DNA of 56,968 nt from Alphaproteobacteria bacterium (GTDB taxonomy: Bacteria; Pseudomonadota; Alphaproteobacteria; UBA6615): positions 26,142 through 83,109 of the forward strand of contig PBMH01000008.1 of the NCBI GenBank assembly GCA_002722515.1, written 5' to 3'. The notes below the pieces were generated by a model. The model ran no database searches, was not told where the DNA came from, and saw nothing but the letters and a program-made list of their open reading frames with translations. Made by a program: the position numbers and the translations under genes. Shown here in pieces: positions 37,517 to 56,216 of this stretch. Within the stretch, counting starts at the first letter, position 1; every line of letters begins with the position of its first letter.

Positions 37517-38002
37517 CTAGTTAGCGACCGGGAACCGGATCACGGCTTCCATGACTTCGCGCGCGACACCCTGCCCGCCTTTGCGAGATAGAACATGTTT
37601 AGCGGCGTCGATCACCTGCGGGTGTGCGTCCGCGACGGCAATTGGGTAACCGACGACATCAATCGCAGGGAGATCGTTGATATCGTTGCCGACGAACATC
37701 AGCCTGTCGGCCGAGAAGCCGTGGTCGGCGCATAGGGCTTTGATTGCGATTGCCTTGTCGACGACGCCGTGCAGCACAGGTATCTGCAGTTTGGCGCCCC
37801 GCGCACGAACTACCGCGCTGGTCTCGGTGGAGACAATGAAAGTCGGGAAGTTGAGTGTCCGCAGCCTGTCGAAGGCTAGCCCATCCGCGCGGTTGCACCA
37901 GACTGCCTCCGTACCGTCGCCGAAAACGAGGACACGGTTGTCGGTAAGGACGCCATCGAAGTCGAATATGATAGCGTCGAGATCTTCTGAATTTACGATC
38001 AT
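37517..38002 (-). CDS. KdsC-like HAD phosphatase
   Basis: Small HAD-superfamily phosphatase of 161 residues without a cap domain, like KdsC and the phosphatase domain of CMP-sialate synthetases. Nucleophile and acid/base are Asp14 and Asp16 in IIFDFDGVLTDN. Motif II is FIVSTETSAVVRAR, and the C-terminal motif is VGNDINDLPAIDVVGYPIAV. Members remove the phosphate from Kdo-8-P, KDN-9-P or similar 9-phosphates. With NeuB- and NeuA-like genes 9-11 kb upstream in the same unit, a nonulosonate-9-phosphate is a likely substrate. Its start overlaps the stop of the glycosyltransferase gene upstream by four bases (ATGA). Confidence 0.85.
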   Translation of the reverse strand: MIVNSEDLDAIIFDFDGVLTDNRVLVFGDGTEAVWCNRADGLAFDRLRTLNFPTFIVSTETSAVVRARGAKLQIPVLHGVVDKAIAIKALCADHGFSADRLMFVGNDINDLPAIDVVGYPIAVADAHPQVIDAAKHVLSRKGGQGVAREVMEAVIRFPVAN

Positions 38003-43978: not shown

Positions 43979-45778
43979 TCAGCCTGTCTCAAGGGGCCGA
44001 ACCCCTTGTTGCTCGCACATGCGACGGAATTTTGAATCAGTTTTCTCGTAGAGTGTATTGAAACTGCCCTGCTCTATCACCTCCCCCTCGGCGAACACAT
44101 AAAGCCAGTCACAGCGGCGGATGGTGGAAAGTCTATGGGCAATGATCACGATTGTACGCTGTCTGTGCAGACGATCGATACTATCTTGCACATATGCCTC
44201 TGACTGGCCGTCTAGCGAGCTCGTCGCCTCGTCAAAAATCAAAAGCTGCGGATCTTTAAAAAGCTCGCGGGCGATAGCGATCCGCTGGCGCTGTCCGCCA
44301 GAGAGGCGCATGCCGCGATCTCCCACCATCGTGTTGAGGCCGGATGGAGTGATTTGTAAAAACGACTCGCAATTTGCAGCAGCGGCCGCGCTGTCGACCT
44401 GTGCGCGGCAGTCCGGATCATTGGGTGGGCAGGCATAGAGGCTAATATTGTTAGCGATGGTGTCGTTGATGATCACTGGGTCCTGCGGCACATAGCCGAT
44501 GAGACGGCGCAAGGACTGTCGATCTAGTTCGCGATAGTCCTGGTCGGCGATGGTGATCGCGCCGTCGTTAGGGTCCAGAAGGCCAGTTAAAAGGTTAAAG
44601 AAAGTGGTCTTTCCCGCGCCCGATTCACCAACAATGCCGATGGTCTGGTGCCGCGGTATCGTGAGGGTAATATTTCGTAATATATTCTGTTCCCCGCGAC
44701 TGAAGCTGACGTTGGAGAAGTTGATATCCGAGTCGATCGACTCTATTAAGTTTGGGCCGTTCGGCTCAGCAGCGTCGGTGACGTCGCGGGTGAAGTCGAC
44801 GACAAAAGTGATTGAACCCGTGAGCTGGTTGATTCTCTGGAAGGAGGCGGGTAATCCGAGCGTTTGATTAAGGAGTCGGTAGAGCAGGAGTGCCACAACT
44901 GCGACGCTTGCGAGAGAGCCTCCACCGATCTCGACCTCGACCAGGATGTAGAGAATTAGGACTGCTACGGCGACCGGTTCCTTAAAGCCACCGAGGATTG
45001 CTGTGCGCAGACCCATCCGAAGATCGAGGCGCGCCACCTCCTTGACCCGCCCACGGACATGGCGTCTCAGGTTCGAAAGGGTTGCGGTCGCCTTCAGGTA
45101 GGGAATTGCGTGAACGAACTGGATCAGCTCGGATGCCAGTGCCGAGTTCTGCGCCGAGGCGCTGATTGAAAGAAGACGAGTGCGTTCAATCAGGGGGCGT
45201 ACTGCAACGAAGACCGCCAATGTTGCGACCACTAATGTCAGTGCGAGATCAAACTGCAGGGCGAGTATCGTCGGGACATAGATGATAATATAGATCAGGC
45301 CTACGAGTACTTGACCAAAGACTTTGAGTGCACTGGCGAAACGACGGGTCTCATTGGTTAGGACATTGATAACATGACCGGTTTCCTGTTCGGTATAGAA
45401 GGTAAAGCTCGCATCGCCGATGCGCTTGGTGAGACGTGTCTGTATGTTCTTTCTCACTGTCGTGATCGTGTGAATCGTCCAGAATGAATGGGCGAAGACG
45501 AAGGTTCCCTTGGCTAGGAAGATTGCTACGATCAGTAGCGCCATGGATTTGAACTCGGTGGGTATTCCGAGTGTTGCCATCATCTGCACCGCCGCTCGGG
45601 TCATGGCGTTTTCGTCCACCTCGCCCATAGCCACTTGGAGAAGGGGAAGAAGCGAAACTATGCCGATTACATCAAGTAGCCCGCCTATTAGGGCCAGCAT
45701 TACCAGCATCGGTAACCGCCAACCGGCAAACCGATAAAAGACCCGGCTGTAGAACAGTAGTTCTCTGCATTGCCTCAT
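43979..45778 (-). CDS. MsbA-like ABC exporter (fused permease and ATPase)
   Basis: Half-transporter of 599 residues that should dimerise in the inner membrane and flip a lipid-linked glycan or export a lipid. Six membrane helices occupy about residues 15-320. The ATPase half has Walker A GIVGESGAGKTTFFNLL near 383, the signature LSGGQRQRIAIARELF, Walker B LLIFDEATSSLDGQSEAY and the switch His in IIAHRLSTIRR. It resembles PglK and MsbA flippases. No Wzx-type flippase is seen in the window, so this protein is the best candidate for glycan translocation. Its start overlaps the stop of the kinase-like gene (ATGA). Confidence 0.92.
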   Translation of the reverse strand: MRQCRELLFYSRVFYRFAGWRLPMLVMLALIGGLLDVIGIVSLLPLLQVAMGEVDENAMTRAAVQMMATLGIPTEFKSMALLIVAIFLAKGTFVFAHSFWTIHTITTVRKNIQTRLTKRIGDASFTFYTEQETGHVINVLTNETRRFASALKVFGQVLVGLIYIIIYVPTILALQFDLALTLVVATLAVFVAVRPLIERTRLLSISASAQNSALASELIQFVHAIPYLKATATLSNLRRHVRGRVKEVARLDLRMGLRTAILGGFKEPVAVAVLILYILVEVEIGGGSLASVAVVALLLYRLLNQTLGLPASFQRINQLTGSITFVVDFTRDVTDAAEPNGPNLIESIDSDINFSNVSFSRGEQNILRNITLTIPRHQTIGIVGESGAGKTTFFNLLTGLLDPNDGAITIADQDYRELDRQSLRRLIGYVPQDPVIINDTIANNISLYACPPNDPDCRAQVDSAAAAANCESFLQITPSGLNTMVGDRGMRLSGGQRQRIAIARELFKDPQLLIFDEATSSLDGQSEAYVQDSIDRLHRQRTIVIIAHRLSTIRRCDWLYVFAEGEVIEQGSFNTLYEKTDSKFRRMCEQQGVRPLETG

Positions 45779-46479
45779 TGATCATGCCTCATTACGGCTT
45801 CGGCAGGAGGGTCTGGGAGTGTCTCGACCATTTGTTCTTGGGTTAGGGCCGCGCCGGAAAATGCTGATACCTCGATGATGGCAGCGATATCTTCTGCGAC
45901 CCGCGTAGCTTCGCGCCCATTTACAGCAATCTCTCGATGGGGAATGCGCAGGCGAATGAGCAGGTCCCGAAGTGCGTTCTGATATGTCGCTATCTGGTCG
46001 GGCGACAGCTCGTTTTTTCGCTCATGAATGCGTGCCGGAGTATCGGTTAGCAGGAAGGTCATCTTCGGTTTGCGCATGAGTCTGCATGCGACCCAGACGG
46101 CCGATATCTGTGGCCGGGCCCTGGCATGTAACCTTAGATCTACAAGTCGATCATAGACGTAACGATCGCTGATCGCCTGTGTGCCGTCGGCGGTTGCGGC
46201 GGCGATTCGACGCGATATGCTTCGGGCGTAGCGCTGCTCGTCATGTGCGGCGACTAGCCACGCACGTAATGGAACCGGCAAAAAATGCCAAATAGATTTT
46301 TTCCAGGCCGCGCGTGTCGTGGCGCCGGCACACGATGCCGCGGCGATAACTGCCTTATCAGCGCGATGGTGGAATGTGGCGGTGGCGTGCCCGCGCGCCT
46401 TCATAATCTCCCGCACCAGAGTAGCCACGGTGGTCTTACCAACCCCGTGTGAGCCGCTAATAACATAAAATTCTGTCAT
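45775..46479 (-). CDS. P-loop kinase, thymidylate-kinase-like
   Basis: Protein of 234 residues. The P-loop GSHGVGKTT lies at residues 9-17. AISDRYVYDRLVDLRLHARAR resembles the DRY/DR motif of thymidylate kinases, and LLTDTPARIHERKNEL the lid region. Length also fits that family, but the C-terminal 45 residues differ. It is translationally coupled to the ABC exporter gene and surrounded by glycan genes. It is therefore unlikely to be the housekeeping TMP kinase, and a sugar or lipid-linked acceptor is possible. Similar kinase-like genes occur in other glycan loci, from memory. Confidence 0.72.
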   Translation of the reverse strand: MTEFYVISGSHGVGKTTVATLVREIMKARGHATATFHHRADKAVIAAASCAGATTRAAWKKSIWHFLPVPLRAWLVAAHDEQRYARSISRRIAAATADGTQAISDRYVYDRLVDLRLHARARPQISAVWVACRLMRKPKMTFLLTDTPARIHERKNELSPDQIATYQNALRDLLIRLRIPHREIAVNGREATRVAEDIAAIIEVSAFSGAALTQEQMVETLPDPPAEAVMRHDQ

Positions 46480-46488
46480 GGGTTCGGC

Positions 46489-47511
46489 CTAACGACGTCC
46501 CTCACTGCGCAGCGCAGCACGGAGACCAGCGTTTGCGTCGAAGGCCCGTTGACGCAGGGTGTTAAGCCGACGCGTGAGATTGGTCCCAGGATACATCATG
46601 GAGTCGCCGAACGTGCGTGCAAATACTGGCGCTCGCGGTGCGACCGCGAGGAGAATGCGAATGTCGCGATAAATCGACCGATTCCTTTCGGCGGCTGCAA
46701 TATGGGCAAGCTCCCGATCAGTCAATAGGTGCCGCCAAGCATCATCGGGTCCCTTAAAGCCGCGGTCTGACCGGTAGACAAAGTTGGGTTCAAAGCTGAA
46801 TGCCTTCTGAATAGCGTCGGGTTCCATGTCGAATGTGCGGGCTAGGCGTCCCTGTTCGTCCCTGTTACCTGCGAGGAGCGCATTGAAGGAAAAGCTTGCC
46901 ACATCATCACCGAAACGTGCCGCCATAGCGCGGGTGACTGTATTGGAAAGGCACCATTGGAAAAGTATGCTTTTAAAACGGCGCTCTCTGTCATCGGGAG
47001 ATTCCGGATAAGAACGCCAAAACAGTCCTTCTGCGATCGCCTCTTGGGGATCGCGTCGCATGACCGCCAAGCGAATGCCCGGGATTAGTTTCCGGTAGGT
47101 CGGGTAACGCAGCTCCGGAAGCAGGTCGAAGACAGCCCAGTGCTGCCGTCCTAGGGATGCTGCGTACCTGTCTAACAGCCAACTAAAAAGTGCGATCGGA
47201 TTGTCGATTGTCTGCGGTATGTCTCTAATGAGCTGATCCGCGTCTGCTTCGAAGTGATCCGTTGGATACTCTACGCGTGTTCGCGTCGCATCCATGTACC
47301 GCGGGCGGCTTAGATATTCGTGCATCAGTCGTAGGCGCTGGTGTCGAAAAAACGGAAAGCGCCGCTGAAGATAAACATGGAACACGCCTTCAAGCGGAAA
47401 GCCGGCCACCGTTCGCGACTCCGCCGCGATTATTTTTGCCAATGCGGTTTTTCCAGATCGCCCGGCGCCACCGATCAACCAGGATCCGGATTGCTGTCCG
47501 CGCGCAACCAT
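46489..47511 (-). CDS. P-loop / sulfotransferase-like protein, unassigned
   Basis: Protein of 340 residues from the ATG at 47511; longer readings overlap the NeuA-like gene. A Walker A loop stands at residues 15-22 (GAGRSGKT), like the 5'-phosphosulfate loop of sulfotransferases but with a classical lysine. Further on, LAVMRRDPQEAIAEGLFW resembles the 3'-phosphate-binding strand and helix of sulfotransferases (R-x-P). WAVFDLLPELRYPTYRKLI is unusual. It could be a sulfotransferase or an ATP-dependent kinase. The gap to the NeuA-like gene is 2 bases, so the two are co-translated. No closer relation was recognised. Confidence 0.6.
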   Translation of the reverse strand: MVARGQQSGSWLIGGAGRSGKTALAKIIAAESRTVAGFPLEGVFHVYLQRRFPFFRHQRLRLMHEYLSRPRYMDATRTRVEYPTDHFEADADQLIRDIPQTIDNPIALFSWLLDRYAASLGRQHWAVFDLLPELRYPTYRKLIPGIRLAVMRRDPQEAIAEGLFWRSYPESPDDRERRFKSILFQWCLSNTVTRAMAARFGDDVASFSFNALLAGNRDEQGRLARTFDMEPDAIQKAFSFEPNFVYRSDRGFKGPDDAWRHLLTDRELAHIAAAERNRSIYRDIRILLAVAPRAPVFARTFGDSMMYPGTNLTRRLNTLRQRAFDANAGLRAALRSEGRR

Positions 47512-47513
47512 CG

Positions 47514-48212
47514 TCAGGGCGCAATCTGATCCGGCAGATAGTGGCGCATTAGCGTTTCGCAGAATTCTAAATCCTCCGGCTCGTCTATTTGGAAACTCTT
47601 CCAGAATTCCATGTGCCATACGCCGATATTGCCGCCAAGACGATTGCCCTGTTCACGCATGATCCGCGGCCGGGTTAGCCAGAAGGATCCGTTCTCGAGA
47701 AACTGCTCGTCCTTTTCTTGGCGCCTCTCGCGCCGCCGGTAGTTGTAGGTGAAACTATTGAGGGAGCCAGATTTGTCCGCGCGCCAGAGATTAAAATCGG
47801 GCAATACCGTCGAGGAGAAAAGGGAATCTAGACTATCGCGCTCGAAAATTGATATTGCCGAGTCGAAGTCACTGGGCGTTCGCACTGGCGATGTGCATTG
47901 CGGCGTTACCAGATTGTCTACTGCGATATTCTTGGCCTCGAAGAAATCCAGCGCGTGCAGCCAGCCCGCTTCAGACGAAGCCTCATCATTTGCGATGGCG
48001 GATGGTCGCTTGATCACCTCTGCGCCGAAATGGCGCGACACGTCGAGGATCTCGACGTCATCGCTACTGACCCAGACTGACGAAATGGCATCGGCCGCCT
48101 GCGCCTGTTCGATCGTCCAGGCGATCAGGGGCTTGCCGCAGAAATTCGTAATGTTCTTGCGAGGAATGCCACGCGACCCGCCGCGCGCCAGTATGACAAC
48201 AACCGATTCCAT
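47514..48212 (-). CDS. neuA: Acylneuraminate cytidylyltransferase (NeuA/PseF/LegF family)
   Basis: Protein of 232 residues that activates a nonulosonic acid with CTP to give the CMP-sugar. The nucleotide-binding motif is ILARGGSRGIPRKNITNF at residues 7-24. The remaining family features are present: GKPLIAWTIEQA, VWVSSDDVEILDVSRHFGAEVIKRP and VTPQCTSPVRTPSDFD. Length is that of the single-domain enzymes. It lies 17 bases after the NeuB-like gene. The sugar could be a sialic, legionaminic or pseudaminic acid or KDN; sequence does not decide. Confidence 0.92.
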   Translation of the reverse strand: MESVVVILARGGSRGIPRKNITNFCGKPLIAWTIEQAQAADAISSVWVSSDDVEILDVSRHFGAEVIKRPSAIANDEASSEAGWLHALDFFEAKNIAVDNLVTPQCTSPVRTPSDFDSAISIFERDSLDSLFSSTVLPDFNLWRADKSGSLNSFTYNYRRRERRQEKDEQFLENGSFWLTRPRIMREQGNRLGGNIGVWHMEFWKSFQIDEPEDLEFCETLMRHYLPDQIAP

Positions 48213-48229: not shown

Positions 48230-49081
48230 CTAGGACGCAATGTCCTGACGAAGCTTCACGCGTGCTTCCATCTCCGCCCCCTCAATTTTCTTTTCACCGG
48301 TGCCCAGGGCATCGGGTATTGCGCGGATAGCTGTTGCAAAACTTCGAAGGGATTTGGTTTCGATCGAGGCGGCTTGGTCGGACCCGTACATGGTTCGGTC
48401 CAGGGTGACGTGTCGTTCTAGCGAGGTGGCCCCCAGTGCGACGGCGGCGAGGCAAACTGTTACTAGGCTGGTTTCGTGGCCGGAGTAACCGACGGCACAA
48501 TCGTAGCGCTCACGTAGGGCTGGAATGCAAAGCAGGTTTGCATCCTCGATCGCCATGGGGTAGGTCGAATTGCAGTGCATCAGCTCAAAGGGGCAGCCTG
48601 CTTCACGGAAGATTTCGACGACCGCGTCGATTTCCTCCAACGTTGACATGCCCGTTGAAATATAAGTTTTGCGTCCGTCCGCCGCCGTGGCGCGCACAAG
48701 TGGAATGTGCCCAAGCATCGGTGAGGCGATTTTGTGAAATGGCGGATTGTAGGACTTAAGGAATTCTAGACTGTCCATGTCCCAGCAAGATGCCGTCCAT
48801 TGGAGGCCAAGAGACTGGCAGAGTTCGTTGATCTCGTCGTATTCCGCGCGCCCGAACTCAAGGCCCTCTTTCTGCTCTCGCTGTGTCGTTCCCCAGGGGC
48901 TCTCGCGATCTCCTGATAGGTACTCGGCGGTATAAACAAGGTCGATGTTTCGTTTCTGGAACTTAACGGAGTCGAAGCCGGCATCAGCGGATGCGGCGAT
49001 CATTTGTCGTGCGAGTTCGATATCGCCATTGTGGTTAATTCCGATCTCGGCGATCAGGAAAGGTTTGGGGCTTGGCGCCAT
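48230..49081 (-). CDS. neuB: NeuB-family nonulosonate synthase lacking the SAF domain
   Basis: Protein of 283 residues that condenses phosphoenolpyruvate with a six-carbon sugar to make a nine-carbon keto acid. The TIM-barrel hallmarks are IAEIGINHNGDIELARQMI at residues 10-28, FDSVKFQKR, TYISTGMSTLEEIDAVVEIF, LMHCNSTYPM and VGYSGHETS. The usual NeuB is about 350 residues and ends in an antifreeze-like SAF domain that closes the partner's active site; here the protein stops after the barrel. The stop is clean, with no frameshift sign, so this is a short-form member. A strong RBS (AAAGGAG) precedes the ATG. Confidence 0.92.
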   Translation of the reverse strand: MAPSPKPFLIAEIGINHNGDIELARQMIAASADAGFDSVKFQKRNIDLVYTAEYLSGDRESPWGTTQREQKEGLEFGRAEYDEINELCQSLGLQWTASCWDMDSLEFLKSYNPPFHKIASPMLGHIPLVRATAADGRKTYISTGMSTLEEIDAVVEIFREAGCPFELMHCNSTYPMAIEDANLLCIPALRERYDCAVGYSGHETSLVTVCLAAVALGATSLERHVTLDRTMYGSDQAASIETKSLRSFATAIRAIPDALGTGEKKIEGAEMEARVKLRQDIAS

Positions 49082-49125: not shown

Positions 49126-49959
49126 TTATATTCCTGCGAGCAGGAGATTGGTCTCCGCTAGTTTGGTCTTGAGCTCGGTTGGCAGATTACGACTGTAGGT
49201 TGGCCTATCTAGGAAGAATGATCGGTGGTTCCGAGAGTGCGAGTTGTCGATACCGTAGGATAGATACATCGCGTATTTGGGGCTCTGCGCCCCTAGGGTT
49301 CCGCCGGCATGGGTCAGGCGCTGGTCAAAAATCACACAGTCGCCGGGTTGTGTTCGAATAACCCTTCGTGGGTTTGTAATAAACCAATGGGGCACCTTGT
49401 CGTTGTGCCCACGCTTGCGCATGAAGGTGGGTGCCTTGTTCCAGAGCATGTACTCGTACCGGCCAAGCCGGCTTTCGCGACGATGGGTGCCCGGTAAAAC
49501 GGCAAGGGAAGAGCCACTGTCGGTATAGTCAGAGAGATAAATTGCGATCCGCACGACGCGGTAAGGCTCTGTCCTTTCGTCCCAGTCCTGGCCGACTCCA
49601 AATTCCCGACACGCATTGTCCCGATGCCATCTCCCGCCGGGCAAATTGATGTGCAGATCAGAATGCTGAGTGTAACGGATGTTGTCGCCTATCAGGCCTC
49701 TGACGGCTGACAAGAGGCGTTCGTTGAAAATTATTGGCCAGAACTCGCGGTTTGTGGTGATGCCGTCGGCCAGTGTGTGGGTTGCGCCCGCGATGGCCGG
49801 AATGGCGGCGTCGCCGGCCGGTAGGCCAAAAATAGCGTTGATCCGGTCACGCCACGCGGCGGACTCCTCTGAACTGAAAAGCGGGCGCAGGAGGTGGAAA
49901 CCAGTACGTTCAAAGTTAGCCCGTGCGGTCAGCGCGCTCGATGATTCGTTCGGGAACAT
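49126..49959 (-). CDS. Phytanoyl-CoA dioxygenase (PhyH) family oxygenase 1
   Basis: Fe(II)/2-oxoglutarate oxygenase of 277 residues with a double-stranded beta-helix. The metal triad is His112 and Asp114 (RWHRDN) and His217 (LTHAGG). The usual 2-oxoglutarate-binding Arg 11 residues after the last His is Lys228 here, which is unusual. The SGSSLAVLPGTHRRESRL segment is the family's substrate lid. No membrane segment or signal is seen. Members hydroxylate many small molecules and sometimes sugars. Its place between the NeuB-like and membrane glycosyltransferase genes suggests it hydroxylates a sugar or lipid of this glycan. It begins 11 bases after the upstream gene. Confidence 0.85.
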   Translation of the reverse strand: MFPNESSSALTARANFERTGFHLLRPLFSSEESAAWRDRINAIFGLPAGDAAIPAIAGATHTLADGITTNREFWPIIFNERLLSAVRGLIGDNIRYTQHSDLHINLPGGRWHRDNACREFGVGQDWDERTEPYRVVRIAIYLSDYTDSGSSLAVLPGTHRRESRLGRYEYMLWNKAPTFMRKRGHNDKVPHWFITNPRRVIRTQPGDCVIFDQRLTHAGGTLGAQSPKYAMYLSYGIDNSHSRNHRSFFLDRPTYSRNLPTELKTKLAETNLLLAGI

Positions 49960-49970
49960 GGCAGCTATCC

Positions 49971-51398
49971 TTAAGACCCCTCGGCCTGATGGTTGGTGCG
50001 CGCCGGGTTTCGAGACCCAAGCCGATCGCGGACCGCCATCAAACCCGCGGCGGTCAGTATCACCAGGGTTGGTGTGAGCGGCATGCCGTATCGCGCGCTT
50101 CCGAATGGCCCATTGAGCACCAGGAAATAGGCCGCTACTGCAAGTAGAAATATAATATAGGGTCGAGTTTCTGCGTTGCGGACCCCACCCAAGGTCCCAG
50201 CCACCTGGAGAAATAGGGCAACGAGGGTTGCTGCCTGTGCGACAGACCAGATCAAAAGGAACGGGTCCGTTGCAACCGCCTTGGAAAATCGTATAAGCCG
50301 TGCAGTTGTGCTTGACCCGGTCACCGCCGAGAAAAATTGCGGGTTCCAGCGCATCTGGTGGCCGGTTTCATATAGCGCCGTTTGCGATGTGGAGCGCAGG
50401 ATGCCGTTGAGGGTACCGCGCGCGAGTGCCGTGAGTGGCACTTGTTTTAGAAAATCGAGGGCTACATCCCGGCGGATACTATTTAGGATCACCGGGTTTT
50501 GTTGTTTGGGGACCGGCATGGCGCCCAATCGGATCTGCAACTCTGCGTGCATCTGATCTTCCATTCCTGCGGCCATGCAATGAGGACAGGCCCGTAGGAA
50601 CTGATCGACGACATCCATGGCATGGTTGCCGGATTGGGTGGTAACCACAGCCTGACCATAATTTGCATTATTTCGGGCCATCTGCGGCACTACAGACACC
50701 ACGATCAGGACGGCCGGAATCGTGGCGAGTGCGGCGGCACGATACCAGCGGGCGCCGCCAGCGGACCAAAGCAGATACCCAACCAGCGGCAATAGCAAGT
50801 AGGGGAAGAACATTAAGGTCGTGCGGGTTTGTAGCGCCAGACTAAATGCGACCCCAGCCGCAATCATGAGCAAAACCTTATGTCTGGATCGGGTGGCCTG
50901 GGCGCAGGCGCTGATTCCCCAGCAGAATAAGGCGAGGAATAGCGTATCCGAAAGCACGAAGGATGCGTAGACCACCAGGGTGGCCCAGACACACGCGAGG
51001 CCAGCTGCCGGCAGAGCCCAGCGTTTGTCGATTGCACCAGCAAGGAGCCCAATCGCAAGCACTGTTGATCCATCGATGAATGCTTGGAAAATGCTGACGA
51101 TCCAGAGCCTTCCGACTCCGAATAACTCAAAGATGCCAGCAAGGAAATAAGGATAGCCCGGCATGCGTGCGGTATCGGGAATTAGGATACCGAAATCTAA
51201 ATAAACAATCTCCCCATGTTCCAGAAGGCTCTGTGCGCGCCTGATGAACTTCCCGGAGTCACTTCCGTTGTTGAAATCCCCTCCCAAAATAGCGACGACA
51301 CCAACATAGGCGAGGCGAAGCGCCACGGCCAAGCCAAACAGAATGAGCATCTGTTTTCGGCTGAGCACCGGTCTGGTGTCTTGTGAGGTAGCGGTCAT
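49971..51398 (-). CDS. Membrane glycosyltransferase, GT39/ArnT-like
   Basis: Polytopic membrane protein of 475 residues with about 10-11 segments, resembling the PMT/ArnT GT-C fold. After the first segment the periplasmic loop has GSDSGKFIRRAQSLLEHGE and IPDTARMPGYPYFLAGIFE. The acidic residue in this loop and the R-x-PGYP motif are features of GT-C enzymes that use polyprenyl-phosphate sugars. It would add a sugar on the periplasmic face after export. The start is ATG at 51398. It lies between the two PhyH genes. Confidence 0.85.
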   Translation of the reverse strand: MTATSQDTRPVLSRKQMLILFGLAVALRLAYVGVVAILGGDFNNGSDSGKFIRRAQSLLEHGEIVYLDFGILIPDTARMPGYPYFLAGIFELFGVGRLWIVSIFQAFIDGSTVLAIGLLAGAIDKRWALPAAGLACVWATLVVYASFVLSDTLFLALFCWGISACAQATRSRHKVLLMIAAGVAFSLALQTRTTLMFFPYLLLPLVGYLLWSAGGARWYRAAALATIPAVLIVVSVVPQMARNNANYGQAVVTTQSGNHAMDVVDQFLRACPHCMAAGMEDQMHAELQIRLGAMPVPKQQNPVILNSIRRDVALDFLKQVPLTALARGTLNGILRSTSQTALYETGHQMRWNPQFFSAVTGSSTTARLIRFSKAVATDPFLLIWSVAQAATLVALFLQVAGTLGGVRNAETRPYIIFLLAVAAYFLVLNGPFGSARYGMPLTPTLVILTAAGLMAVRDRLGSRNPARTNHQAEGS

Positions 51399-51478
51399 GG
51401 TCGGTTGGCGTCGTCCCGTGCCATCGGGCGGCGGGAAAGGCTTGTAGCTATAGATGAGCGAATGAGCGGTGTGGCCGC

Positions 51479-52339
51479 TTATACGATTCGCACGATCCGG
51501 CGTTGTTCTTTGTTCAGGGTTTTTGTGACATCGGGATGCAGGGTCGGAACAGGACTAAGGTCCGTAGAAATCGGACCGGGCGCGCGGAAGGAGTAGTTCC
51601 ATGTATCCCGGCGGGGGCCAGTGTTGCGATCAGCCCGGTGGGCGCAGTTGGTGTCAAAAATCGCTATTGATCCAGCCGAGCCGGCGCAGCATGCTGGTTT
51701 GCCGGCCCGCAGGACTTCATCTTGCTTCAGCCGTGAATGGCTGACGTCGTAGTGATATGTGAGGTGGCTTCCGGGAACATACTTTGTGCACTGCCCGTCC
51801 TCGGGTACGTCGGACATGAAAATAAATACGCGCGCTTGCTTGCGCTTGCCGTCGTGGTGCCATTGGTTTGAGCCGCTGTCCTCGAGCTCCGCCGGCTCGT
51901 AGCGCGTGCCGCCAGTGCCGTTCAATACCACGGGCTTTCCCCAGTAATACTGCACGAGGTCCAGCAGACTGGGTTCGAAAAGGAGCTTGCTAAATAGTGC
52001 GGTTTCCGAGAATCGCGACGTCGCGATGTGGACGCTCCGCTCGGCTTCTGCCTCGCGATTGGGGGGGTTCGTTGCGACGAGGCGTTCGAATTCCACGCGC
52101 ATCTCGGCAAGCCGTTTGGGCCCGAAGAAATTCGGAACGACGACACCGCCATTCGCACATAACGTCTCGGCATAGACTTGAAAACCAGGCAGTTCGGAGC
52201 GCTCAGCTATCCGACGGCGGTACGCCGTGCTCGGGCGTTCATAGAATTGCCTGTCATATTCGGCTCGCAAATAGTGATAGGCGCGCCTCGCGATGGGAGG
52301 CAGCGATGAAGACATGATATTTTTCAGTTTCATATCCAT
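51479..52339 (-). CDS. Phytanoyl-CoA dioxygenase (PhyH) family oxygenase 2
   Basis: Fe(II)/2-oxoglutarate oxygenase of 286 residues from the ATG at 52339; a TTG ten codons upstream is possible. The metal ligands are His161, Asp163 (QWHHDG) and His234 (NCAHRAD), with arginines 9-10 residues further (GPRRDTW) for 2-oxoglutarate. The core VFIFMSDVPEDGQCTKYVPGS is the family lid. It shares little with the other PhyH protein beyond the fold, so the two probably hydroxylate different positions. It lies in the same transcription unit as the glycan genes, downstream of the phosphatase-superfamily gene. Confidence 0.85.
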   Translation of the reverse strand: MDMKLKNIMSSSLPPIARRAYHYLRAEYDRQFYERPSTAYRRRIAERSELPGFQVYAETLCANGGVVVPNFFGPKRLAEMRVEFERLVATNPPNREAEAERSVHIATSRFSETALFSKLLFEPSLLDLVQYYWGKPVVLNGTGGTRYEPAELEDSGSNQWHHDGKRKQARVFIFMSDVPEDGQCTKYVPGSHLTYHYDVSHSRLKQDEVLRAGKPACCAGSAGSIAIFDTNCAHRADRNTGPRRDTWNYSFRAPGPISTDLSPVPTLHPDVTKTLNKEQRRIVRIV

Positions 52340-52411
52340 AGTAATTTCAGTTTCTTTATGTGCGTTCAAGACCAGATTCTTCTTTGTCCGCTTGCTTTTT
52401 TCGGCAACGCC

Positions 52412-53998
52412 CTAACCCCCGGTTGGCGGCTCTGGTGCAACTGGGTCAACCTCGACCAGCCCGCCATTGGCGCCGCGCTGTCGCAGAAAGTGCCTATCCG
52501 GCAGAAGGGCGGCCATTTGACCTTTGAGGCAGGCAAAAACAAGGCGGAAGGTGTTAACGGGCGACAATGCATCATGGAATTGCGTCTGACAGGTCGCGGG
52601 GAGGCGCAGCGCGTTGAGTGTCGCGAGGCGCCGCGCGGGCTCTTCGCCTAAGGTTACCCCCTCGGGTGTTATCGGTGCTTCCCCTGGAAGTCGGAACTTA
52701 AAACCATGGTCGCCCTGCAGGATAATGATCGGGTCGGTGTCGTCGTTTGCGAGGACCTGTGTGACCGCGTCCTCAAGAGAGCGGTTCGTGCAGACCGTGT
52801 CGGTGCGGAACTGGATTGGATCGTAAACGCCTTCACCGATATCTACTGCGGAGATGACCCCTTTGAGGCGGGTACAATCTGGTGCGAAGCGCGGTGGTGC
52901 GTGTGGTGAAAGAATGTGGGCGAACAAGAAGAAAGGCGATGACTCTGTCGGACTGATGGCGGCCATTACGTCCTCAACGAAGATATGATCATATCGGAAC
53001 GCGCCCGGCAGTATTCTACGAGAGATACGAAACAGCGGTGTGAGTTTTAGCAGGCTGATCTGGACCTCGTTGAGTGGCACGTCGCCGCTTGGTCGCGCGT
53101 GAATGCAGCGATCCTCGGAGCCGCCACACTGGGTTTTGGCCGCTCCGGCATACGGGGCATGGAAATATCGATAGCCGAGAGCATCGAACCCGCGGACCAC
53201 GGGGTTGAAACCCGATAGGGTGCTGATCTGCTCTGCGGAATTGGGGGGATCTCCATTGGGAAGCTGGCGGTAGGTTATGTTCAGAGTCGACGTTAGTGAG
53301 AGCGTGGTGTTGTCATAGTTTGCGAAGGCAGAATGCGCGATCTGGAAGCCGCGCGCAGTCAAGAAATCAAGGAAGGGTTGGTTGTCGTGATTGAAGTAGC
53401 GCGCGAGGCTGTCGTCGCGCGCGTAGCCATCGAGCAAGAACCAGTAGACATTGTGCTGCTTGGTCTCGCTGGTTCTGTTCGTTACTGTTTTTCCAACGGA
53501 CGAGAGATCGGCTCGGGGCTCAAGTGTACCGCCGCTGTTTGCTATGATTTGCATGGTCGGCCAGGCAATCAAGGCGAGGCCAACTACTGTCATCACAAAA
53601 CCCGCTGACGGACGTTGGGCCAGAACCCAGCTAACCCAACCGGCGGCGACAAAAACAATGAGCCAGACGCCGAGCCAGGTCGTTCCAAACTCGATACCAG
53701 CTAAGATCAGCAGATGTGCGACGCTACCGAAGCTGAAAAAGACTGCGCTCAGGACACCAATCACGATCGCGATTCGGGCGAGGGGCTGTTTGTGCAACAG
53801 GAGCGAGAGGGCCAGGGTGCTCGCAACCGCAACTGCCAGCATGGCTGCCCAGGGGAGCACCACTTCTCTGCTGCGCAGCGTCTGATCCAAGTTGTTGGCC
53901 AAGAAAGCCACGAAGGGCCAGCTTGTCAGAAGGACAAGCGGCGCCATGCACCGTATGAAGCCAGTCAGGTTTGTCTGTTTGGTTCGGGGGTTAGGCAC
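52412..53998 (-). CDS. Membrane-anchored alkaline-phosphatase-superfamily transferase (sulfatase-like fold)
   Basis: Protein of 528 residues with four N-terminal membrane segments (about 15-35, 50-68, 77-100, 108-150) and a periplasmic catalytic domain. The domain opens with NVYWFLLDGYARDDSLARY (metal-binding Asp190). Where sulfatases have the formylglycine Cys/Ser it has NYDNTTLSLTSTLN, so Thr231 or Thr232 is the likely nucleophile. QGDHGFKF supplies the later Asp-His metal ligands. The Thr makes a phospho-group transferase (as in LtaS, EptA or OpgB) more likely than a true sulfatase. The start is GTG at 53998. It probably adds a phosphoglycerol or phosphoethanolamine group. Confidence 0.8.
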   Translation of the reverse strand: MPNPRTKQTNLTGFIRCMAPLVLLTSWPFVAFLANNLDQTLRSREVVLPWAAMLAVAVASTLALSLLLHKQPLARIAIVIGVLSAVFFSFGSVAHLLILAGIEFGTTWLGVWLIVFVAAGWVSWVLAQRPSAGFVMTVVGLALIAWPTMQIIANSGGTLEPRADLSSVGKTVTNRTSETKQHNVYWFLLDGYARDDSLARYFNHDNQPFLDFLTARGFQIAHSAFANYDNTTLSLTSTLNITYRQLPNGDPPNSAEQISTLSGFNPVVRGFDALGYRYFHAPYAGAAKTQCGGSEDRCIHARPSGDVPLNEVQISLLKLTPLFRISRRILPGAFRYDHIFVEDVMAAISPTESSPFFLFAHILSPHAPPRFAPDCTRLKGVISAVDIGEGVYDPIQFRTDTVCTNRSLEDAVTQVLANDDTDPIIILQGDHGFKFRLPGEAPITPEGVTLGEEPARRLATLNALRLPATCQTQFHDALSPVNTFRLVFACLKGQMAALLPDRHFLRQRGANGGLVEVDPVAPEPPTGG

Positions 53999-54021: not shown

Positions 54022-54927
54022 TTATGACGGGTATCCGTCATCGGCCAACGAACGGCTCAGAAAGGCAGAGAGTGCGCGATTCTCGGCGCCATAGACCTTG
54101 GCGAGAATGCCGCGATCGTCAAATTTCCGGTAGCGTAGCGGTCGTCCGGTCCGGTTGCTGTACTTCCGGGCGAGATACTCGGCTAACTCCACAAAAATAT
54201 GATCGTGTCCGCGGCGCCGAATCTCCGGAAAAATTGTATTTTTGCGGTGTCTCATTCGTAGGCGATTCAGCGTTAGCATCGTGTCGATGACTAGGTCGTG
54301 ACGCTGCGGGTTCATCGGCGGCTGGTTGGCGATGTAGCGGACCTCGTCATCGGGGAGTCCACCCTCCGGTGGCCCAACGAAGTCACGAAGATGACAAAGA
54401 AGCTCGAAGGAATTGCGGCGTAAATCCTCAAATAGGTAAACATGCACACGTTCTGGGAAAAGTTCGAAGAAGGGCTCGAGCACCCTCTGGTAGTGCCACT
54501 TCGTTTGTACAGCCTTGTTGAGATATGCGGCGAGGCCCATGCGTCCGCCATTAGTGACATACTGACCGTAATGAGAGGCGACCATCGAGTGTTGCGAGCG
54601 GATGCCGAGCACGATCCGGGCGTTGGGGAAGTTGTGAGATATGGTTGTTGCGAGCTCTGGGATTTCTTCTCCCATCAGCCCCTCCTCGAGGCGTTGCCGC
54701 ACAATGAACGGGCCCTGTGATGCCTCTATTGCGTCCCAAACGCTGTCGGCGGATTGCCGGACAAGGTTAATTTGCTGGTGAGGATAACGTTCCGTGAAGA
54801 CGTTCTTCCATATCCACTTGCTCGCTGTCTTGTGGTAGCCGAGATAGATCACAACCCTCGATGAATCACGTGTACCGCGCGACGACTGTTTGGCTCTTAT
54901 CGGTTCCGCGGTGGATTCTTCCGTCAT
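54022..54927 (-). CDS. Sulfotransferase-family protein
   Basis: Protein of 301 residues with the PAPS-dependent sulfotransferase layout. The 5'-phosphosulfate loop is YLGYHKTASKWIWKNVF at residues 28-44. The 3'-phosphate-binding segment IVLGIRSQHSMVASHYGQY has the conserved Arg and Ser. VHVYLFEDLRRNSFELLCHLRDFVG matches the later core helix. Members transfer sulfate to sugars or lipids. No PAPS-synthesis gene is in the window. It overlaps the preceding putative transferase gene by four bases (ATGA), so the two are coupled. Confidence 0.82.
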   Translation of the reverse strand: MTEESTAEPIRAKQSSRGTRDSSRVVIYLGYHKTASKWIWKNVFTERYPHQQINLVRQSADSVWDAIEASQGPFIVRQRLEEGLMGEEIPELATTISHNFPNARIVLGIRSQHSMVASHYGQYVTNGGRMGLAAYLNKAVQTKWHYQRVLEPFFELFPERVHVYLFEDLRRNSFELLCHLRDFVGPPEGGLPDDEVRYIANQPPMNPQRHDLVIDTMLTLNRLRMRHRKNTIFPEIRRRGHDHIFVELAEYLARKYSNRTGRPLRYRKFDDRGILAKVYGAENRALSAFLSRSLADDGYPS

Positions 54928-56216
54928 GTTGCACTTGGTTGTGTAATGGGTTTGGAAGTGTGCGCCTCGTACACCGATCGACCGTTGATGATGTTGTTAA
55001 CGACATTCTCGTAATAGTCCGGAATAACGTGGTAACTCTCGTGATAGTTGAAATTCTGGTGCAGTGGGTCGCGCTTGTGCACACGTGCAAACGATATGCG
55101 ATCCCAAAGCTGCATCAGGGCCTTCGGCACAGCTTTTCCACGCGGTCGTTTGCGGTTTGCCAGATGTGCCATGATCGCGCCTTCCGCCCGGGCAATTGAC
55201 GAGGTGTTGCTGGACCAGTCGTGGAACTCATCTAGATGGACGTCGACTTCGTCATTCTGGATGGGTGGTACACTGGGGTCATGCGCGATCAGTTCTATGG
55301 CCTCGTCGTAACTTTCGGGTTGATATCCGACCAGCTGTGACATTGCAGCAAAGGGCGTGATCTGACGGATCATGTCCGATGTTTTGCTGAGTTGGTCCAT
55401 CTGGATTGTTGGTGTGCCCAGAACGTAAGATTCATAGAAGCTTTGGGATGATGGTGTGATGATCACCCGCTGTCGCGCCGTCCAATCAGCGACATCAAAT
55501 GAATTGTCTATCTCTACGCGTCCCTCAAACGGCCCTTCGTTGAAGAACTCATAGCCCTCGGGTGCCTCAAGCGGGTGAGGCCGGATGGAGATTAAAAGGT
55601 CGGTTTCATTGATGATCCGGTGAATTAAAGTAATCATCGTTATGAAACTCTCTACCTGCCAGACGACACCATTGCGCTTCTCTGGATACTGCAAAGAAAA
55701 GATTGCCGGGACCGAGTTATACCGATTGAGGGAGTGAAAACGGCCGATGAAACCGATTGTTTTTTTCTCAACATTGAGGAGGTCCGGATTGAACTTCACC
55801 ATGTCCAGCCTCGGGTTGCCGCACATAACGAGTTTCGATCGATCATGGTGAGGCATCGTTTGTGCGAAGTAGTCGAGGTTTCGCGGCCCCCAAAGGAGAG
55901 CGAGGCTCAGGCGCTCATAAGCCTCGGGCCATTGGGCTAGTTGAGTCGCGTCACTACTCGGCAGGGGCTGAGCCCCCTCGCCAGGCCAGAGGATAATCGA
56001 GGCGTTTGGGGCTAACTCGGCACAACGTTTGATCTGACCCACCGTATTAATCAGGATGGCATCTGGGTTCCAGTTCCTGAGTAGGCGCGTGAAGTCCCGG
56101 CCCGAGGCTATTATTACCTGTGCGCCCGCGCGTTCGAGTAACCGTGCAAGAATGACAGAGGATGCGATATCCCTTCGCAGGGTGAAGGCGCGAATGATAA
56201 TTCGGTATCTGGACAT
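54924..56216 (-). CDS. Putative surface-polysaccharide glycosyltransferase, GT-B-like
   Basis: Protein of 430 residues in the group of surface-carbohydrate transferases with a GT-B fold. The N-terminal half has IIIRAFTLRRDIASSVILARLLERAGAQVIIA (shortened in reading) and a NP..LIN-like first strand. The C-terminal half has LLISIRPHPLEAPEGYEFF (the RPHP donor-site motif shared with the next upstream gene) and RVIITPSSQSFYESYVLGTPTIQMD. The last 110 residues are extra and charged. RBS AAGGAAAAGA is good. It follows the partial gene by 8 bases. The donor is unknown. Confidence 0.7.
   Translation of the reverse strand: MSRYRIIIRAFTLRRDIASSVILARLLERAGAQVIIASGRDFTRLLRNWNPDAILINTVGQIKRCAELAPNASIILWPGEGAQPLPSSDATQLAQWPEAYERLSLALLWGPRNLDYFAQTMPHHDRSKLVMCGNPRLDMVKFNPDLLNVEKKTIGFIGRFHSLNRYNSVPAIFSLQYPEKRNGVVWQVESFITMITLIHRIINETDLLISIRPHPLEAPEGYEFFNEGPFEGRVEIDNSFDVADWTARQRVIITPSSQSFYESYVLGTPTIQMDQLSKTSDMIRQITPFAAMSQLVGYQPESYDEAIELIAHDPSVPPIQNDEVDVHLDEFHDWSSNTSSIARAEGAIMAHLANRKRPRGKAVPKALMQLWDRISFARVHKRDPLHQNFNYHESYHVIPDYYENVVNNIINGRSVYEAHTSKPITQPSAT

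Follow-up and report, generated by a model that had tools for sequence, protein, structure and literature searches.

A PhyH-type oxygenase with a conserved lysine travels with a SAF-less NeuB in bacterial surface-glycan loci

Background

Here we present PhyA, a PhyH-fold Fe(II)/2-oxoglutarate (2OG) oxygenase whose gene is paired across bacterial genomes with a short form of NeuB that lacks the SAF domain. PhyA (277 residues; positions 49126 to 49959, minus strand) is encoded by a marine alphaproteobacterium within a polysaccharide locus, on a stretch of 56,968 nucleotides of contig PBMH01000008.1 (assembly GCA_002722515.1) that we refer to as the window. The protein retains the metal triad of its family and has a conserved lysine at the position of the arginine that usually anchors 2OG. 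We lean towards the reading that PhyA oxidises, most simply hydroxylates, an ulosonate or its phosphorylated or cytidine monophosphate (CMP)-activated form within a nonulosonate pathway.

The original prediction, made from the letters of the window alone, described two PhyH oxygenases flanking a GT-C glycosyltransferase and proposed, with KdoO as precedent, that they hydroxylate a nonulosonate or the lipid carrier. The arrangement is as described: the open reading frames (ORFs) of PhyA, the GT-C enzyme and the second oxygenase, PhyB, are all open, both oxygenases exceed the Pfam PhyH cut-off and the glycosyltransferase exceeds that of PMT_2.

Known bacterial nonulosonates vary mainly in their amino, acyl and stereochemical pattern. 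An oxygenase dedicated to nonulosonates, if this proves true, would add oxidation of the skeleton and link this chemistry to the supply of oxygen and 2-oxoglutarate. The close tie to a NeuB that is missing the domain for reading the N-acetyl group suggests a sugar outside the curated NeuB, PseI and PseF models, and the PhyA-linked genes provide handles for finding that sugar. PhyA is also a natural test of lysine in place of arginine as the 2OG anchor of the PhyH fold. While the fold, the cofactor and the general chemistry are known, a putatively Lys-anchored PhyH subfamily tied to a SAF-less NeuB appears to be new: in the open-access literature searched, no paper links nonulosonates, sialic acid synthase, capsules or Leptospira rfb to PhyH or phytanoyl-CoA dioxygenase.

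A conserved lysine in the active site of PhyA

PhyA scores 49 bits against the Pfam PhyH family (PF05721; cut-off 22), and its HxD...H metal triad, His112/Asp114/His217, is intact and invariant in all 14 PhyA proteins of a 14-row alignment that spans three phyla. Eleven residues past His217, at the position of the 2OG arginine, stands Lys228, which a profile alignment places opposite the arginine of the 'PFPR' motif of EctD, a residue that we take to bind 2OG. Lys228 is kept in 14/14 homologues and is therefore not a chance substitution. Other PhyH proteins that align with PhyA have arginine here in 22 cases out of 23, and the sole exception (L012) is a distant, Lys-type relative of PhyA (26%) encoded beside GT2, sulfotransferase and sulfatase genes. 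The triad and the lysine in place of arginine had both been read correctly in the original prediction. PhyA, which has no hydrophobic segment, is probably a soluble Fe(II)/2OG oxygenase whose 2OG is anchored by lysine in place of the usual arginine.

The alignment also holds Arg113, Arg118 and Arg137 invariant, residues that would suit an anionic substrate. Two further motifs, His99-x-Asp101-x-His103 and Asn239-x-His241-x3-His245, are likewise kept in 14/14 PhyA proteins; Arg118 and the His99/His103/His241/His245 set distinguish PhyA from generic PhyH proteins, in which they are not found as a set. The two motifs are a candidate second metal site or substrate pocket.

The structure model of PhyA (pLDDT 82.7, pTM 0.84) has a PhyH-type fold, as the original prediction would have it. 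Its best solved neighbours are PhyH-type enzymes of sugar-bearing antibiotics, of which SnoN, HygX and KanJ act on sugars or aminoglycosides. They are SnoN (Z 17.9, root-mean-square deviation 3.5 over 209 aligned residues), HygX (Z 17.0, 3.6 over 215), SnoK (Z 16.9, 3.9 over 213) and KanJ (Z 16.4, 4.0 over 227), and the amino-acid hydroxylases H11 and GriE reach near-equal fold scores. The predicted fold thus makes sugar substrates possible for PhyA and is no proof of them. The four antibiotic enzymes differ from PhyA in belonging to antibiotic pathways and in sharing only 15-18% identity with it; the sequences of HygX, SnoN and KanJ give no match to the PhyA profile at E<=0.1, and we know of no NeuB partner for any of the four. 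Assignment of PhyA as the ectoine hydroxylase EctD was rejected at 16.9 bits against an equivalog cut-off of 336.5 (TIGR02408).

Genomic pairing of PhyA with NeuB

A survey of one genome each for about 85,000 species returned 13 PhyA loci, in marine Alphaproteobacteria, Kiloniellaceae, Legionellales, Ferrovibrio, Rickettsiales assemblies, one member of the Anaerolineae and one of the Bacteroidetes. Of the 13 stretches fetched around them, 11 contain NeuB (12 of 14 counting the window), and PhyA is directly 5' of NeuB in 8 of the 14. At the two remaining loci the contig stops just past PhyA (L050) or NeuB lies 13.9 kb off (L056, in genome G031). The order PhyA, NeuB, NeuA and P-loop protein is kept in relatives G001, G005, G017 and G021; among 95 relatives these four, all PhyA-bearing, are the ones with orthologues of the window NeuB (74-88% identity), the next-best NeuB being at 41%. 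Generic PhyH genes of the relatives served as a control, in a sample made up of the best 150 by score among the matches listed, with weaker PhyH genes outside it and some short contigs. None of these 150 has a NeuB within 20 kb, although 90 of them come from NeuB-bearing genomes. The proposed co-occurrence with NeuB is thus strong and specific for PhyA, and homologues in unrelated pathways were not seen, the distant Lys-type protein L012 standing beside the genes named above.

In a tree of NeuB proteins the PhyA-linked members form two separate groups of 11 and 2 rows. In the PhyA tree, which was built without the distant outgroups L012 and L013 because their branches are too long, the proteins of L055 and L056 group with the other proteobacterial PhyAs on a poorly resolved backbone. 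From these two patterns PhyA seems to have been joined to two SAF-less NeuB lineages.

A NeuB without the SAF domain

The NeuB of the window (minus strand, 48230 to 49081) matches PF03102 at 221 bits and has no C-terminal extension (0 residues) and no SAF match. Lengths were compared over 30 NeuB loci from the relatives, the PhyA loci and L041, L042 and L045, with identical copies counted once. All 13 distinct PhyA-linked NeuBs end within 11 residues of the end of the NeuB domain, against 49-66 extra C-terminal residues in 24 of 25 other NeuBs, the 25th being a larger fusion. Pfam SAF was matched by 5/5 control NeuBs tested and by 0/5 PhyA-linked ones.

According to PMC6795526, Arg314 is the only active-site residue that the antifreeze-like domain contributes to Neisseria meningitidis NeuB, where it helps to position the N-acetyl group of N-acetylmannosamine; the same paper describes the synthase of 3-deoxy-D-manno-oct-2-ulosonate (Kdo) 8-phosphate as having no such domain. 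We infer that the substrate of the PhyA-linked NeuB would make do without this N-acetyl contact.

The next gene encodes a NeuA-like CMP-ulosonate cytidylyltransferase (minus strand, 47514 to 48212; PF02348 at 71.5 bits), whose best solved relatives are CMP-N-acetylneuraminate synthetases. A KdsC-type HAD phosphatase is encoded further along the cluster (minus strand, 37517 to 38002; TIGR01670 at 85.4 bits, under the cut-off of 106.95). Genes for KdsC-like HAD proteins are also present in L053, L055, L057, L058 and the G031 locus; in other PhyA loci these homologues adjoin or are fused with NeuB or NeuA genes, with NeuA fusions in L055 and G031. The window HAD probably belongs to the NeuB pathway, and its presence across PhyA loci suggests a phosphorylated intermediate. 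The cluster resembles the 3-deoxy-D-glycero-D-galacto-nonulosonate (KDN) 9-phosphate route of HAD and NeuA in having a NeuB domain above the PF03102 cut-off and a HAD like KdsC or KDN-9-P phosphatase, and differs from it in that its NeuB lacks SAF and both NeuB (231.5 bits against 399.65 for TIGR03569) and HAD (75.3 against 180 for KDN-9-P phosphatase) fall under the cut-offs.

Fusions of CMP-ulosonate synthetase occur with HAD phosphatase (L055:7283-8443, L129:7331-8479) and with a class-III aminotransferase (L058:3146-5287). SAF-less NeuB loci without PhyA (L121, L122, L124, L125 and L126) contain class-III-type or class-IV aminotransferase, short-chain dehydrogenase/reductase and xylose-isomerase-like genes, and their sugars are perhaps other members of the same family.

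A P-loop companion

Past NeuA lies a protein with a Walker A motif (GAGRSGKT) that falls in no Pfam family (minus strand, 46489 to 47619). Its ORF overlaps NeuA by 106 bases, so that its true start is probably internal. By profile, the family has members in 9 of the 13 PhyA loci (L046-L049 and L051-L055) besides the window, and none in the 8 loci where a SAF-less NeuB occurs without PhyA; it is missing near PhyA in L056, L057 and L058. Against solved structures its best E value is 0.53. The protein may act directly before or after PhyA, and the motif allows no more than a guess at kinase activity.

A putative pathway and its alternatives

In the pathway that we propose, the SAF-less NeuB would condense phosphoenolpyruvate with a sugar, probably phosphorylated, that lacks the N-acetyl group normally held by the SAF arginine, and the KdsC-type HAD phosphatase would take off the phosphate. 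PhyA would oxidise the ulosonate, whether free, activated or phosphorylated; the simplest such reaction is hydroxylation of a carbon, the one that KdoO carries out on Kdo. NeuA would activate the ulosonate with CMP, and glycosyltransferases would then add it to the surface glycan. The order of these steps, like the binding of 2OG by Lys228, the substrate and the reaction, is inferred.

The comparison with KdoO stands for the chemistry and fails for the family. According to PMC5462993, KdoO converts Kdo to D-glycero-D-talo-oct-2-ulosonic acid (Ko) in the lipid A-core, and kdoO is found in a Burkholderia O-antigen cluster. PhyA would likewise be a dioxygenase with a surface-glycan ulosonic acid as its target, but KdoO acts on Kdo in the lipopolysaccharide core whereas PhyA travels with NeuB. 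Neither PhyA nor PhyB matches the KdoO family PF11004 at E<=0.01, and the window genome has 0 matches at E<=10.

Several observations weigh against an oxidised ulosonate as the product of PhyA. At least 8 other genomes of the class have short NeuBs and no PhyA match, PhyA itself being present in 2 of 385 class genomes (the window genome and G031); this makes PhyA an accessory of a broader SAF-less NeuB group, outside its core pathway. NeuB, NeuA and HAD all score under the NCBIfam cut-offs and so point to no particular named sugar. In L054 and L055, PhyA adjoins the P-loop gene and NeuB is 3-9 kb away, and adjacency gives no substrate. Class-III aminotransferases are also encoded in L057 and L058, an AMP (adenosine monophosphate)-ligase and a DegT aminotransferase upstream of PhyA in L049, and a DegT aminotransferase in L051, so that PhyA could instead target an acyl or amino substituent.

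These last genes speak for a different role, in which PhyA modifies not the nonulosonate ring but a substituent or the completed glycan, whether by N-acyl hydroxylation or by epimerisation, desaturation or ring closure in the manner of SnoN, SnoK and HygX. That its closest folds are SnoN, HygX, SnoK and KanJ is consistent with such a role, but fold likeness gives no reaction when H11 and GriE score nearly as well, and aminotransferase and AMP-ligase genes are not in all PhyA loci whereas NeuB nearly is; we regard this role as possible but doubtful. Still less probable is that PhyA works with the P-loop protein, making a hydroxyl or other group for a putative kinase while NeuB merely shares the island. 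The distribution of the P-loop family over loci with and without PhyA, and its place directly beside PhyA where NeuB is not (L054, L055), would fit; against this, the family is missing from the three loci L056-L058, where NeuB is within 14 kb, and no Pfam family or solved relative marks the protein as a kinase. A partnership of this kind is compatible with a role of PhyA in the NeuB pathway.

Loss of activity, with one or both oxygenases kept for structure or regulation, has a precedent in a PhyH relative with a lost triad in a related locus (L129, described below), and PhyA does lack the canonical 2OG arginine. The invariance of the PhyA triad and Lys228 in 14/14 proteins from three phyla, and of the triad and arginine in 2/2 PhyB proteins, makes this very unlikely. 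Hydroxylation of the polyprenyl lipid carrier by PhyA or PhyB, the other substrate originally put forward, is the least probable of all. GT-C enzymes use lipid-linked donors, and the single point in favour is the GT-C enzyme between the two oxygenase genes; it is absent from that place in L048 and is not labelled near PhyA in L051-L058, and PhyA has no hydrophobic segment.

Starting from ulosonate oxidation by PhyA, a bolder picture can be drawn, which we offer as speculation that is more probably wrong than right. PhyA would be the founder of a nonulosonate-dedicated class of Lys-anchored 2OG oxygenases and, with the SAF-less NeuB and the P-loop protein, would make an undescribed, skeleton-hydroxylated ulosonic acid. 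This sugar would correspond to Ko among the nonulosonates and might carry a phosphate on the new hydroxyl. The system would have spread in marine Alphaproteobacteria and been exchanged with other phyla.

A second oxygenase in the neighbouring module

PhyB (minus strand, 51479 to 52339; 286 residues from its ATG, with an alternative TTG start at 52369 that adds 10 residues) scores 58.4 bits against the PhyH cut-off of 22, in a match that spans residues 71-253 when counted from the TTG. Numbered from the ATG, its triad is His161/Asp163/His234, as claimed. Compared with Arg-anchored PhyH enzymes of the phytanoyl-CoA hydroxylase and EctD type, PhyA has lysine whereas PhyB has the arginine (Arg244), one residue nearer to the distal histidine than Lys228 of PhyA; triad and arginine are kept in both of its two members. 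PhyB has an N-terminal extension of about 60 residues. Its structure model, built from two sequences, reached a pLDDT of 30.7 and was not used. The two oxygenases had been called unrelated; a BLASTP match over 26 residues (E=0.001) and a profile comparison (82.6% probability over 125 columns) show them instead to be distant members of one Pfam family.

Among the relatives only G017 has a strong PhyB homologue (65%), and in the phylum PhyB is found in 1 of 398 genomes, that of the window itself. In G017 (locus L048) PhyB directly precedes PhyA with no GT-C gene between, and its other neighbours are the genes for the sulfatase-like, sulfotransferase-like and surface-carbohydrate proteins, as in the window. 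This arrangement and the conserved PhyA-NeuB order therefore place the two oxygenases in different modules: PhyA goes with NeuB, PhyB with an adjoining module that varies more. Co-occurrence with NeuB, which the original prediction extended to both oxygenases, speaks for nonulosonate hydroxylation in the case of PhyA; it gives no such support for PhyB, which was found only in the window genome and one relative and appears to be a separate, lineage-restricted oxygenase of the neighbouring decoration module.

The GT-C enzyme (minus strand, 49971 to 51398) is a PMT_2-like membrane glycosyltransferase of 475 residues with nine hydrophobic windows (PF13231 at 29.6 bits; cut-off 26.1). It adjoins PhyA in the window, L046, L047, L049 and L050. 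Two PhyH genes with a GT-C gene as one conserved unit were rejected on the evidence of G017.

The rest of the PhyB module, also on the minus strand, comprises a membrane protein with a weak sulfatase/alkaline-phosphatase-like domain (52412 to 53998; PF00884 at 23.5 bits, under the cut-off of 25), a sulfotransferase-like protein (54022 to 54927; PF13469 at 16.9 bits, under 27) and a surface-carbohydrate biosynthesis protein (54924 to 56216; TIGR04396 at 76.8 bits, under 125), all three assigned to the module by their conserved place with PhyB in G017. The sulfatase-like protein, with five hydrophobic segments, may serve the glycan as a phospho-group transferase.

PhyH oxygenases had been thought unusual in surface-glycan loci. 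Genes of a different PhyH subfamily also occur in nonulosonate loci (L045:16096-17019, L054:4746-5663 and L129:6386-7324), and PhyH genes are therefore not rare there. The L045 gene, in G021, has as neighbours a second NeuB, this one with a SAF domain, and a homologue of the sulfatase-like protein of the window. The PhyH-like gene of L129, in G031, adjoins a NeuA-HAD fusion, and its triad reads His, Asn, Arg; it is probably an inactive relative.

The locus and its host

The window genome (G000:C8) is a 2.14-Mb draft, 82.9% complete, with two more PhyH genes elsewhere. A plasmid search with PhyA gave no match, and viral contigs searched with the PhyA and PhyB alignments gave no relatives. PADLOC matched PhyA, PhyB and the P-loop protein at 46489 to no defence family. 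A second P-loop, kinase-like protein (minus strand, 45775 to 46479; Walker A GSHGVGKT; Thymidylate_kin at 24.9 bits, under the cut-off of 27) gave one weak PADLOC match (E 0.00071).

The polysaccharide locus occupies the minus strand between about 28 and 57 kb of the window and encodes several GT4 enzymes, a WecA-type Glycos_transf_4 protein, a Polysacc_synt_2 dehydratase, Wzy_C, AsnB, an MsbA-like ABC transporter, a radical SAM protein and a methyltransferase in addition to NeuB and NeuA. Read along that strand, the order is surface-carbohydrate protein, sulfotransferase-like protein, sulfatase-like membrane protein, PhyB, GT-C, PhyA, NeuB, NeuA, the two P-loop proteins and the ABC transporter, with intergenic gaps of -106 to 80 bases throughout this run.

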